A stretch of DNA of 28,753 bases. Origin: a virus. The stretch is from positions 1 through 28,753 of IMG/VR virus record IMGVR_UViG_3300027973_000171; one strand, written 5' to 3'. Under the pieces are notes generated by a model. The model was not told the origin of the DNA. It worked only from the letters and a program-made list of their open reading frames with translations, and searched no databases. Below are positions 1,642 to 27,491 of this stretch, piece by piece. How positions within the stretch are numbered: position 1 is the first letter of the stretch; each line of letters opens with the position of its first letter. Position numbers and translations under genes: made by a program.

Positions 1642-2139
1642 TTACATTTTTGGGGAGTAAGACATTTTGATATTTTCAGAATATCCTCGTTGAGTATGAA
1701 TTGCCCCAAGTTGAAATCCTAATTGTGGCCATGGTTTTGTTGGAGTCGGAACACAATAAATCTCCTTAATTGCAAAGTTATTTTCCCTCATATCACGTAT
1801 TCTTTTTTTTGTTGTGTAATGATTAATCGTAGTCAAATACACAATATTATCCGATATTTTCATTCCATGCTCAAGAAATTGCTGCATTTTAGACCACGGT
1901 GGATTTGTGATAATCCAATCTACTTTCAAGTTATACGTTAGAAAATCTTTACCTTCACCAAGTTCACACCAATCTTTGGTCTCTATATTAAAATTATCAT
2001 AAAATGCTCCCTCACCTCTACAGGGATCTAATATCAATCCCGATGGAGAAAAATGTTCTATGATTTCCTTTGCCAGATATTCTGGTGTCATTACCATATC
2101 TTTCTCTGGACTATTTGTTGGTGGACAGAATGCTCTCAT
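1642..2139 (-). CDS. DNA adenine N6-methyltransferase, small (165 aa)
   Basis: This gene encodes the core of a SAM-dependent amino-methyltransferase acting on DNA. The visible motifs run in order: KDMVMTPEYLAKEI (14-26, substrate and cofactor-side helix), motif I LDPCRGEGAF (37-46, SAM binding), an acidic loop GEGKDF, and the catalytic NPPW (79-82), which marks adenine or N4-cytosine chemistry; NPPW favours N6-adenine. At 165 aa it has little room for a target-recognition domain, so it may recognise a short site or need a partner. Its ATG overlaps the stop codon of the upstream 204-aa gene by 4 nt (ATGA), implying coupled translation. If that gene is a nuclease, this is the protective half of a restriction-modification pair. 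Otherwise it is an orphan methyltransferase guarding phage DNA from host enzymes. Confidence 0.8.
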   Translation of the reverse strand: MRAFCPPTNSPEKDMVMTPEYLAKEIIEHFSPSGLILDPCRGEGAFYDNFNIETKDWCELGEGKDFLTYNLKVDWIITNPPWSKMQQFLEHGMKISDNIVYLTTINHYTTKKRIRDMRENNFAIKEIYCVPTPTKPWPQLGFQLGAIHTQRGYSENIKMSYSPKM

Positions 2140-2750
2140 TTGTTAAATGTTCTCTTTTTGGATTGAATAATAATATTAATATCTTCCTTCTTATATTCTA
2201 TTCCAGAATTGATCAATTTGTCAAGAGGAATAGAACATTGAACTCTACGCTGCTTTTTGCTGTCAACCTTTGGATTAATAATGAACATCGATGTGTCAGA
2301 ATCAACTTCAGATTTCCAAGATTCTTTAAACAATTGTTGATACTGTAACTGTCCCACTTTACCCTTTTCAATGGATTTTATTTTAGATACATACTGTTCA
2401 ATTTTTTCATAATCCATACCATTCCAAAGCATATCATAGTGCTGAGATTTAATAAAAAACTCATATTGAGTATGAAATACTTTTTGCTTCCCAATCTGAT
2501 CATAACATCCAACAACAAATCTATATTCGCCAGTGTGATTCATCATATTCAATAAATCCGCGCAGCAAACAGTATTATTTTGAGTTGTTTTGATACTACC
2601 ATCATAATCAACGATCAATCCTGCAACAAGATCAAATTCTGATGTGTATCCATTTTTTTTAAGTTCATCGTATTCTTTTTTGGATAAACCAGTTCTTTGT
2701 TGGATAATCACATCCTCAAATATATTTCCATGTGCTTGAACTTCGGACAT
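2136..2750 (-). CDS. Candidate type II restriction-like nuclease (204 aa)
   Basis: I cannot match this gene to a named family with certainty. It shows an N-terminal helix with FEDVI (11-15), then FDLVAGLIVDYDGSIKTT (39-56), in which D40 and the SIK at 52-54 have the spacing of a PD-(D/E)XK core with the middle acid replaced by Ser. Next come a conserved-looking CCADLLN and alternating beta strands (YRFVVGCYDQ, VFHTQYEFFI) typical of restriction-type folds. The decisive context is that its stop codon overlaps the start of an adenine methyltransferase. The promoter element TATAAT at 2778-2773, directly after a hairpin, lies 22 nt upstream. A DNA-binding accessory protein is the main alternative. 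Confidence 0.45.
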   Translation of the reverse strand: MSEVQAHGNIFEDVIIQQRTGLSKKEYDELKKNGYTSEFDLVAGLIVDYDGSIKTTQNNTVCCADLLNMMNHTGEYRFVVGCYDQIGKQKVFHTQYEFFIKSQHYDMLWNGMDYEKIEQYVSKIKSIEKGKVGQLQYQQLFKESWKSEVDSDTSMFIINPKVDSKKQRRVQCSIPLDKLINSGIEYKKEDINIIIQSKKRTFNK

Positions 2751-5466: not shown

Positions 5467-5877
5467 TTAGAAAAACTTTTCAATACCGATAAGATTTCCA
5501 AAGGAGTAATCATATGTAAGAGCATCATGGCACACATAATGTGGATGTGTAGTGGGAACGCCCACTCTTTGACACAACTCTTGATGATTATCTCCCATTA
5601 ATTCTACAGCGTATAGCATATTATTAAGCACGTGTTCTTCAGAATGATACTTGATCAATTCATTTTTAAGAGTAAGAATAAAGTTACCAGATCCTGCAGA
5701 ATTATCTAAGAATCTTGAATTTGGATCTTTTCTTTTCTCAATGGGAATTTTCTGAATCATTTCTTCACAAACATGTATTGGTGTGAATACTTCTTGAGTT
5801 TCAGCAATTCTTTCATCTGATCTTTCAATATTAGAACCAGTTTCTTTATTATGCTTGTTCTTTGTGCCCATTACCAT
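5467..5877 (-). CDS. Methyltransferase SAM-binding subunit (136 aa)
   Basis: This protein carries the cofactor half of an adenine methyltransferase. It shows the motif X-like QEVFTPIHVCEEM (28-40), motif I FLDNSAGSGNFIL (56-68, intact GxG), an acidic strand end AVELMGDNHQE for the SAM ribose, and CHDALTY as motif III. It ends EKFF before any NPPF motif appears. The missing catalytic motif is present in the upstream, 29-nt-overlapping gene 5849-7216. The overlap is out of frame: the upstream gene would need a +1 shift to read into this one. In this frame a stop codon lies ten codons before the ATG at 5877, so a separate start is likely. It probably works as one subunit of a two-chain enzyme. 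Confidence 0.7.
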   Translation of the reverse strand: MVMGTKNKHNKETGSNIERSDERIAETQEVFTPIHVCEEMIQKIPIEKRKDPNSRFLDNSAGSGNFILTLKNELIKYHSEEHVLNNMLYAVELMGDNHQELCQRVGVPTTHPHYVCHDALTYDYSFGNLIGIEKFF

Positions 5878-7216
5878 ATCTTTTTGTATATACTGTAACT
5901 AATTTTTTCTTACCAAAATGTGGGATTCCATTAGTAGTCTCCATAGCAATGTCTCTAAAAGTGTTATCACCATTCTGACCAAGAGAAATAATTCTTTCAA
6001 GGATTTGTTCCTTTGTATTATTTTCATCAGGTCTTACTCGAATGTAATTATGAGAGGAAGATTTTTCATATTCTGTCCACCTCTTACCTTCAGGATTTTT
6101 TTCTCCAGGAAGAAAAACTCTCCCAGAAGCACCTGCACCATCACCACCAACAAAAATATCAGCATCATAACGATTCTGGTATGAAAGAAACTCAAAATGT
6201 GGATGTTCTCTATATTCAACTTCTAATGGACGTGATTTTTCACCAATCTTCCATTCCTGAATACATGCATCAATACTTGCAGCAAAATCTTTAGGATCAC
6301 AATCCTTGCTACTTACAAGTTCAAGATCTCGATTAATTTTATTAAAGTTAGATGATCCTTTCTTAATAGATTTGGGTAGAATCAAAAGAATCTGCCCATT
6401 CTTTGCACGAACTCTATCCGCACAATTATTTAAAAATTTTAGTGCTAATCCACCACCCTTTCCGAAAGGAGGATTGCCCGTTACAGCATCAAAATCCATG
6501 GATTCATATTCTCCTTGTGTGATAAACTTTACAGTTTCTGGTATATATCCAAATCCAATATTCATATCATAATCTTTATCGGTGTAGATATTGGTATATC
6601 CCAGATTAGATAAAGTAATACAAAAATGCCCAAACGCATCCATTGGTATATAAATTATAGCATCTTTTGATATAGATTTCAACTTGTCAATTATATCACC
6701 AACCAGATATAATTTTGGAGCACGAACTGCTTCAGGATTCTTTTCTTTAATCTTTTTAGCATGAGATTCTGGAGTGAATCCATATACTCGTTCTTGATCA
6801 TAAAATTTTTTACTTAATTCAAGAACTTTATCTCGGAGATAACTAATAAACTCTGAATAAGTTTTAATCCACAAGGGTGCAAAAACTATTTCTGGGGATC
6901 CACCCAAGTTAGTTTTTCTGCATCCTTGAGAATACAAACTTGCTCGAATATAATGATCAGATAATTCGTGATGAACATGCAGAAGTTCATCAGGAGACAC
7001 CTTTTCTGGAAGTTTAGAATAATCTCCATCTTTGAAACGTTCTAAATTACGATGAGGTCCTGTTTCACCAACGTAGGCACAAACAGAACGTCTCCCCAAT
7101 TCAATTAATTCTTTAATTGCTGGTTGTTGATGAAAATATATACCATTTTTTTCATCACTAACTGGACCTGGATATCCAAGATTGGTAACCAGAATTGCAT
7201 CCATAAGACCATTCAT
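5849..7216 (-). CDS. DNA N6-adenine methyltransferase catalytic subunit (455 aa)
   Basis: The catalytic motif GNPPFGKGGG (247-256) is clear and is preceded by DFDAVT, as in Eco57I- and type I-like adenine methyltransferases. Upstream, IIYIPMDAFGHFCITL (187-202) and IYTDKDYD sit where motifs I and II belong, but the glycine loop is degenerate (DAFGHF instead of xGxG). The segment after NPPF (about 265-300, ILLILPKSIKKGS) matches motif V-VI strands, and the C-terminal half may hold target recognition. The N-terminal 160 residues are unassigned. The intact SAM-binding motif lies in the overlapping downstream gene, so the two chains may complement each other. The promoter at 7284-7255 lies upstream. 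It probably modifies phage DNA against host restriction. Confidence 0.75.
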   Translation of the reverse strand: MNGLMDAILVTNLGYPGPVSDEKNGIYFHQQPAIKELIELGRRSVCAYVGETGPHRNLERFKDGDYSKLPEKVSPDELLHVHHELSDHYIRASLYSQGCRKTNLGGSPEIVFAPLWIKTYSEFISYLRDKVLELSKKFYDQERVYGFTPESHAKKIKEKNPEAVRAPKLYLVGDIIDKLKSISKDAIIYIPMDAFGHFCITLSNLGYTNIYTDKDYDMNIGFGYIPETVKFITQGEYESMDFDAVTGNPPFGKGGGLALKFLNNCADRVRAKNGQILLILPKSIKKGSSNFNKINRDLELVSSKDCDPKDFAASIDACIQEWKIGEKSRPLEVEYREHPHFEFLSYQNRYDADIFVGGDGAGASGRVFLPGEKNPEGKRWTEYEKSSSHNYIRVRPDENNTKEQILERIISLGQNGDNTFRDIAMETTNGIPHFGKKKLVTVYTKRYGNGHKEQA

Positions 7217-26771: not shown

Positions 26772-27491
26772 TTACGCGAAAAAAGCAGATAAACCCTCCA
26801 AAACTACTTCACTTTCAACATTTGTTTTTGGATTTTTGATTTTAATGCTGTGAGAAAGTTTTGGCATCGTATCAAAGAACTTTTCAATTTCTTTGAATTG
26901 TTTGGAACTTAGTTGCTCAAGAAACTCATTTAGTTCTTTTTTAGTGCAATCAGCGGCAGACCAAGATTCTTCTTCAGAGTAAACTTGCTCAATGCATGAA
27001 GAAATCAAGTCAAAAGTTTCATCAACTCCAATATTTCCTCCCATAGAGAAGTTGTTTTTAATAAACTCATTCATTGATGGATACTTCATTCTAAGAACTA
27101 AAGTATCATCAAGTTTAATATCTCTAGAATGCTCTTCAGAAACTTGAACTTGAATTTCGTCGAGATTGATTGTAGTCGGAACCTGAGTCTCATTATCATC
27201 TGGGCAGGTTACAAGAACTTCTACTTCTTCACCTACAGATTTGCCACGAATGTTTAGGAAGAGATACTCAATATCAAATGTGGAAAGTTCGTCTACTTTA
27301 ACGCCTTTTGTGAGAATACAATTTGATATTACGTTCTTAACTGAATTTGCAATCTGATTGGAATCTTCACTTTCCATTGCAATAATAAGGATCTTTTCTT
27401 CTTTAACCAGAAAAGGACGATATTTAACTTTCTTTTTGGATGATGGCACTTCCAACTCATATGTTGGTGTTGCAATTTTTGGTAAAGGCAT
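26772..27491 (-). CDS. gp26: Baseplate hub subunit gp26 (239 aa)
   Basis: The N-terminal stretch MPLPKIATPTYELEVPSSKK followed by KVKYRPFLVKEEKILIIAME is the hallmark of the gp26 family of T4-like phages, and the length (T4 gp26 has 208 residues) fits. The central part alternates acidic helices and strands (DIEYLFLNIRGKSVGEE, VLVTCPDDNE). In T4, gp26 belongs to the hub assembly pathway together with gp51, which lies immediately downstream here. A late-type TCTAAATA lies 26 nt upstream and overlaps the end of the gp48-like gene, so this is a second entry point into the operon. Confidence 0.85.
   Translation of the reverse strand: MPLPKIATPTYELEVPSSKKKVKYRPFLVKEEKILIIAMESEDSNQIANSVKNVISNCILTKGVKVDELSTFDIEYLFLNIRGKSVGEEVEVLVTCPDDNETQVPTTINLDEIQVQVSEEHSRDIKLDDTLVLRMKYPSMNEFIKNNFSMGGNIGVDETFDLISSCIEQVYSEEESWSAADCTKKELNEFLEQLSSKQFKEIEKFFDTMPKLSHSIKIKNPKTNVESEVVLEGLSAFFA

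Follow-up and report, generated by a model that had tools for sequence, protein, structure and literature searches.

A probable type II restriction-modification pair of marine cyanophages, with GTAC as the target deduced from genomes

What do two small, overlapping genes carried by a T4-like cyanophage do, and on which DNA would they act? They lie in IMGVR_UViG_3300027973_000171, a 28.7-kb fragment that was analysed whole and is called the window below (28,753 nucleotides; a T4 baseplate protein is found at 26772-27491). A preliminary description had read them as a candidate nuclease coupled to a small adenine methyltransferase by a 4-nt ATGA overlap. Both ORFs are indeed present on the minus strand and overlap in this way, the ATG of the methyltransferase occupying 2139-2137 and the TGA stop codon of the nuclease 2138-2136, and the elements that had been singled out in the 204-aa ORF (D40, S52-I-K54, YRFVVGCYDQ and QYEFFI) are all found there. 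The overlap probably couples translation of the two genes. The two ORFs are no chance pair: the 204-aa protein is kept among cyanophages (46-67% identity), and the methyltransferase starts at or just past the nuclease stop, mostly with the same ATGA overlap, in 53 of 72 IMG/VR loci, whereas the neighbouring helicase and second methyltransferase genes change place from locus to locus. Near relatives of the pair are in Kyanoviridae and other cyanophages. Positions are collected in Table 1.

Table 1. Features of the nuclease and methyltransferase genes, in window coordinates
Feature	Position	Strand	Basis
204-aa type II restriction endonuclease homologue (T4-GC 495, phrog_6892)	2136..2750	minus	REase_II profile, AF2, VIA-align, GTAC test
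E12 codon, first helix, invariant	2715..2717	minus	54-homologue comparison
D40 codon, candidate catalytic Asp, invariant (54/54)	2631..2633	minus	54-homologue comparison
S52-I53-K54 codons, at the expected (D/E)XK place; K54 invariant	2589..2597	minus	model and homologues
Codon of invariant D65, a candidate for the displaced acidic metal ligand	2556..2558	minus	54-homologue comparison
C-terminal signature INPKVDSKKQRRVQCS, characteristic of the family and a candidate for DNA contact	2232..2279	minus	homologue comparison
ATGA overlap, methyltransferase start / nuclease stop	2136..2139	minus	4 nt
165-aa amino-methyltransferase (T4-GC 467; phrog_799), putative	1642..2139	minus	motifs and co-occurrence; function inferred
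Methyltransferase motif I (LDPCRGEGAF)	2002..2031	minus	sequence
Methyltransferase motif IV (NPPW)	1894..1905	minus	sequence

Members of the nuclease family (phrog_6892 / T4-GC 495) are labelled hypothetical in the annotated records examined. Homologues were found in 28 phage records, every one cyanophage or marine, and at the 72 IMG/VR loci, two of which are remote (32% identity, L082/L083). No relatives were found in plasmids, nor in bacterial genome contigs, for which the scans detect close relatives only. The PADLOC profile for type II restriction enzymes, REase_II (PDLC03460), recognises the window protein (E=3.8e-13) and 6 of 7 further homologues tested, cyanophage members reaching 2.8e-19; with the remote L082 protein the match covers most of the length (E=1.9e-51). 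Pfam and NCBIfam searches with the nuclease gave no match, and a profile search of PDB sequences gave none to any solved structure.

An AlphaFold2 model of the 204-aa protein, made from 35 viral sequences, was confident (pLDDT 89.4, pTM 0.85). Its best VIA-align matches were DpnI and Eco15I (Z 8.2 each), NhoI (7.6) and SfiI (7.0), with PvuII (Z 6.1), BglI, BcnI, MutH and EcoRV also among the leading ones. A Z of about 8 counts as modest under the tool's own note, but the result is convincing because a single superfamily fills the list and the sequence evidence agrees: restriction enzymes occupy nearly all rows at Z>=5, and unrelated folds appear only at Z 3.5 and below. The predicted fold is thus not one unrelated to nucleases, although Foldseek returned no match against the PDB at E<=0.001. 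The best viral fold match was A7RBT9 (298 aa, E 4e-15), to which the PADLOC model is equal in length, and which we guess to be a chlorovirus enzyme or R.CviQI.

Comparison of 54 divergent representatives showed fourteen invariant positions: H7, G8, E12, T36, D40, K54, D65, Q85, K90, K161, Q167, R169, Q171 and C172. The D40 and K54 on which the nuclease reading had been built therefore do not vary in any homologue of this set. Position 52, usually held by an acid, is Ser in 52 of the 54 homologues and Gly or Ala in the rest, and the invariant D65 sits eleven residues after K54; from the alignment, D65 may stand in for the acid missing two residues before the Lys. The protein thus shares with PD-(D/E)XK enzymes of the PvuII/BglI/SfiI/DpnI type the core fold, the invariant Asp and Lys and the Glu of the N-terminal helix, but differs from them in having Ser for the acid and an invariant Asp 11 residues beyond the Lys. 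In Cfr10I and NgoMIV, too, the acid is displaced in a similar manner. We conclude that profile match, a model whose matches are led by PD-(D/E)XK enzymes and invariance of D40, K54, E12 and D65 all support the reading of the 204-aa protein as homologous to type II restriction enzymes and as a predicted PD-(D/E)XK-type nuclease.

The 165-aa protein matches the phrog_799 DNA methyltransferase family (E=1.8e-39), and its cyanophage homologues are 72-88% identical to it. The order of its motifs, namely motif X, motif I and NPPW, is typical of gamma amino-methyltransferases. As had been pointed out in the preliminary description, it is small and has no recognisable target-recognition domain (motifs X, I and IV only). 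The further suggestion that the nuclease lends it specificity found no support, and is unnecessary. The model of its structure reached only pLDDT 59, too low to be of use.

The proposed pairing is borne out by co-occurrence and by the complete absence of GTAC described below, with two refinements. In a profile search of 20 complete cyanophage genomes, the methyltransferase was present in 6/10 nuclease-bearing and 0/10 nuclease-free genomes, a sub-threshold match in S-ShM2 (31 residues, E=0.02) being left out of the latter count. All 13 records of the phage collection with this methyltransferase at >=60% identity also carry the nuclease, and the GC467 methyltransferase without the nuclease was not found among the cyanophages searched, so that on this point the expected co-occurrence held. 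The two genes are not always adjacent, however: they lie about 10 kb apart in P-HM1 and MED4-213. Moreover, the nuclease occurs without GC467 in Syn1, S-SM1, S-RIM44 and ACG-2014f.

These last genomes offer a test of specificity, since a nuclease lacking its methyltransferase would kill its own genome unless its site were gone. All tetranucleotides were counted in 16 complete cyanophage genomes (ACG-2014f minus its last 5.4 kb), and expected counts were obtained as the maximal-order Markov estimate. GTAC was absent from the nuclease-only genomes Syn1, S-RIM44 and S-SM1, where 574, 610 and 492 copies were expected; four genomes that carry the pair had 43-322 copies, and eight that lack both genes had 144-584. 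The same was seen in uncultured contigs. Those with only the nuclease had no GTAC (expected 204 in the 45.8-kb L078, 160 in L050, 146 in L075, 46 in L048 and 41 in L096), while three contigs bearing the methyltransferase had 50, 105 and 20 copies for 331, 292 and 159 expected. Among the 136 tetranucleotide classes, GTAC alone was missing from all five nuclease-only sequences compared (Syn1, S-RIM44, S-SM1, L078 and L096) and present in 16/16 others. CCGG was also at zero in the three complete genomes, but is equally missing from nearly all the others, and is therefore not discriminating. GTAC also tends to be sparser where both genes are present (0.23-1.83 per kb) than where neither is (0.81-3.28 per kb), which imperfect protection would lead one to expect. 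The window contains 33 copies, against 66.8 expected.

In a tree of the nuclease, sequences free of both GTAC and methyltransferase fall in four places, mostly nested among paired lineages: S-SM1 beside six paired lineages; Vellamovirus (the Syn1/S-RIM44 type) within a paired clade with S-WAM2; L096/L120 within another paired clade; and L075/L078 beside MED4-213. With just 43 GTAC, S-WAM2, which shares a small clade with the Vellamovirus group, looks as though sites were thinned out ahead of the loss of the methyltransferase. Because methyltransferase-free lineages contain no GTAC, the likely target of the nuclease can be read from the genomes alone, and this loss points to GTAC as the site of both enzymes.

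On the evidence of homology, predicted fold, unvarying residues, gene co-occurrence and the distribution of GTAC, we take the view that the two genes very probably form a phage-borne type II restriction-modification pair specific for GTAC, whose nuclease would attack host or rival DNA. Infection may then proceed as follows. Methylated (or GTAC-free) phage DNA would enter the cell, where the 204-aa PD-(D/E)XK-type nuclease, once made, would cut the unmethylated host chromosome at GTAC, stopping host functions and releasing nucleotides; it would possibly also cut the DNA of competing phages. The 165-aa protein would methylate the GTAC adenine on new phage DNA, presumably giving GTm6AC, and thereby protect it. 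In at least four methyltransferase-less lineages, the phage would be safe because no GTAC remains. That the nuclease outlasted methylation in several lineages, although hundreds of sites had to be removed for it, speaks against a purely selfish addiction pair and for a benefit that the phage draws from the attack itself.

The pair may be correctly read and yet serve mainly to exclude superinfecting phages, rather than to destroy host DNA. Nuclease-free cyanophages, with their hundreds of GTAC sites, would be vulnerable to such an enzyme. On the other hand, the packaged restriction enzymes of chloroviruses are considered to break down the host's DNA on infection, the viral DNA being methylated (PMC7019647, PMC7248222), and they cause no mutual exclusion (PMC7019647). 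We regard exclusion as the main role as possible but rather unlikely; the two roles are in any case compatible.

Chloroviruses offer the closest functional precedent for the cyanophage pair. Their systems (CviAI/CviAII of PBCV-1, CviQI of NY-2A) likewise consist of a virus-encoded restriction enzyme adjacent to an adenine methyltransferase, with a 4-bp target, and the NY-2A methyltransferase M.CviQI modifies GTAC to GTm6AC (PMC4357717). Neither the NY-2A CviQI locus nor the published M.CviQI primer sites were found in IMG/VR. Chloroviruses infect eukaryotic algae, whereas the present pair belongs to tailed phages of cyanobacteria, and several cyanophage lineages, unlike chloroviruses, dispense with the methyltransferase by purging sites. 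In phage T4, endonuclease II attacks host DNA while the phage is protected by its modified cytosine; T4 thus relies on base substitution, and the cyanophage pair would rely on sequence-specific methylation or on absence of the site.

A quite different account would have GTAC purged under pressure from host restriction enzymes, with the methyltransferase as an anti-restriction device and the nuclease as an unrelated repair or recombination enzyme. Phages commonly avoid host restriction sites (PMC6286503), and other palindromes such as CCGG are also avoided by every cyanophage tested. This account nevertheless appears very improbable, given that GTAC is kept in the hundreds in the eight genomes with neither gene, that the purge is confined to sequences with the nuclease and without the methyltransferase, in four lineages, and that the nuclease matches a restriction enzyme profile. 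Least credible of all is a DpnI-like, modification-dependent nuclease cutting methylated competitor or host DNA, which the presence of DpnI, NhoI and Eco15I among the top structural matches might suggest: their scores are tied with or near those of ordinary restriction enzymes, a methyltransferase creating the target would be self-destructive, and methyltransferase-free lineages, which would then need no purge of GTAC, have purged it.

One complete genome breaks the rule that sequences with the nuclease and no methyltransferase lack GTAC. In ACG-2014f, GTAC occurs 462 times, GC467 is missing and the nuclease retains every conserved residue. A different type II methyltransferase (PDLC03255, E=3e-12) is encoded at 38.4 kb; at E 1e-5 it had no homologue among the 15 remaining cyanophage genomes, and it could substitute for GC467. 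It is related (31%, 2e-11) to the methyltransferase of a 227-kb phage contig (L083/L086), where one of the remote nucleases lies 3 nt from a convergent type II methyltransferase (PDLC03255, E=1e-57). Together they make up an entire type II restriction-modification pair in convergent orientation (L086:6001-7473), with a methyltransferase of another family than GC467, and GTAC is the most depleted palindrome of the contig (63 found, 550 expected). Methyltransferases of the PDLC03255 type may protect GTAC in both ACG-2014f and this contig. Five short contigs (L060, L063, L079, L081 and L112) have the nuclease, some GTAC and no visible methyltransferase; they are fragments, from which absence of the methyltransferase from the whole genome cannot be read, and L063 resembles MED4-213, where that gene sits about 10 kb away.

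Other methyltransferases were also considered. A Dam-like D12 methyltransferase as protector of the nuclease-only phages was rejected, because nearly all cyanophages have it, whether or not they carry the nuclease, and because it would leave the loss of GTAC unexplained. No C5 methyltransferases were found in the eight cyanophage genomes searched. The window has two further overlapping minus-strand ORFs (5467-5877 and 5849-7216) that look like a split adenine methyltransferase: the 136-aa part has motifs X and I, and the 455-aa part has NPPF. Both parts have relatives in ACG-2014f, the longer one (5849-7216) belonging with the second methyltransferase family of ACG-2014f and L086.

Type II restriction enzymes are said to be rare on bacteriophages (PMC4081073), and the literature searched, coverage of which was incomplete, yielded no previous account of a GTAC enzyme in cyanophages. 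What appears new here is a cyanophage type II restriction-modification pair whose target is deduced from genomes, together with orphan forms secured by complete loss of the site. An unrecognised restriction enzyme has been sitting under the label hypothetical in well-studied cyanophages. Among the most abundant photosynthetic bacteria, the degradation of host DNA and the competition between phages can now be tested directly, and the search for absent sites offers a general route to other phage nucleases and their targets.

A broader proposal can be made, but only tentatively: stand-alone restriction enzymes, made safe by complete purging of the target rather than by methylation, may be a chief way in which marine cyanophages in general destroy host DNA, with GTAC enzymes in the present lineages and probably others for CCGG, GCGC and TTAA elsewhere.

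Several other sites are depleted. CCGG occurs 0 or 1 time (44-147 expected) in 15/16 cyanophage genomes, and 156 times in ACG-2014f, which suggests a near-universal cyanophage or host enzyme for this site. S-ShM2 has no TTAA (590 expected), the 10-kb contig L123 no GATC (42 expected), and P-HM1, P-HM2 and P-SSM4 no GCGC; these gaps are candidates for purged targets of further nucleases. In the window, CATG falls far short of expectation (19 copies, 81.8 expected), as it does in the relatives L013/L014, while GATC is not depleted (143 copies, 162.8 expected). Finally, in Syn9 the density of the non-palindromic GTTC/GAAC is roughly a seventh of that in other cyanophages (0.73 compared to about 5 per kb).
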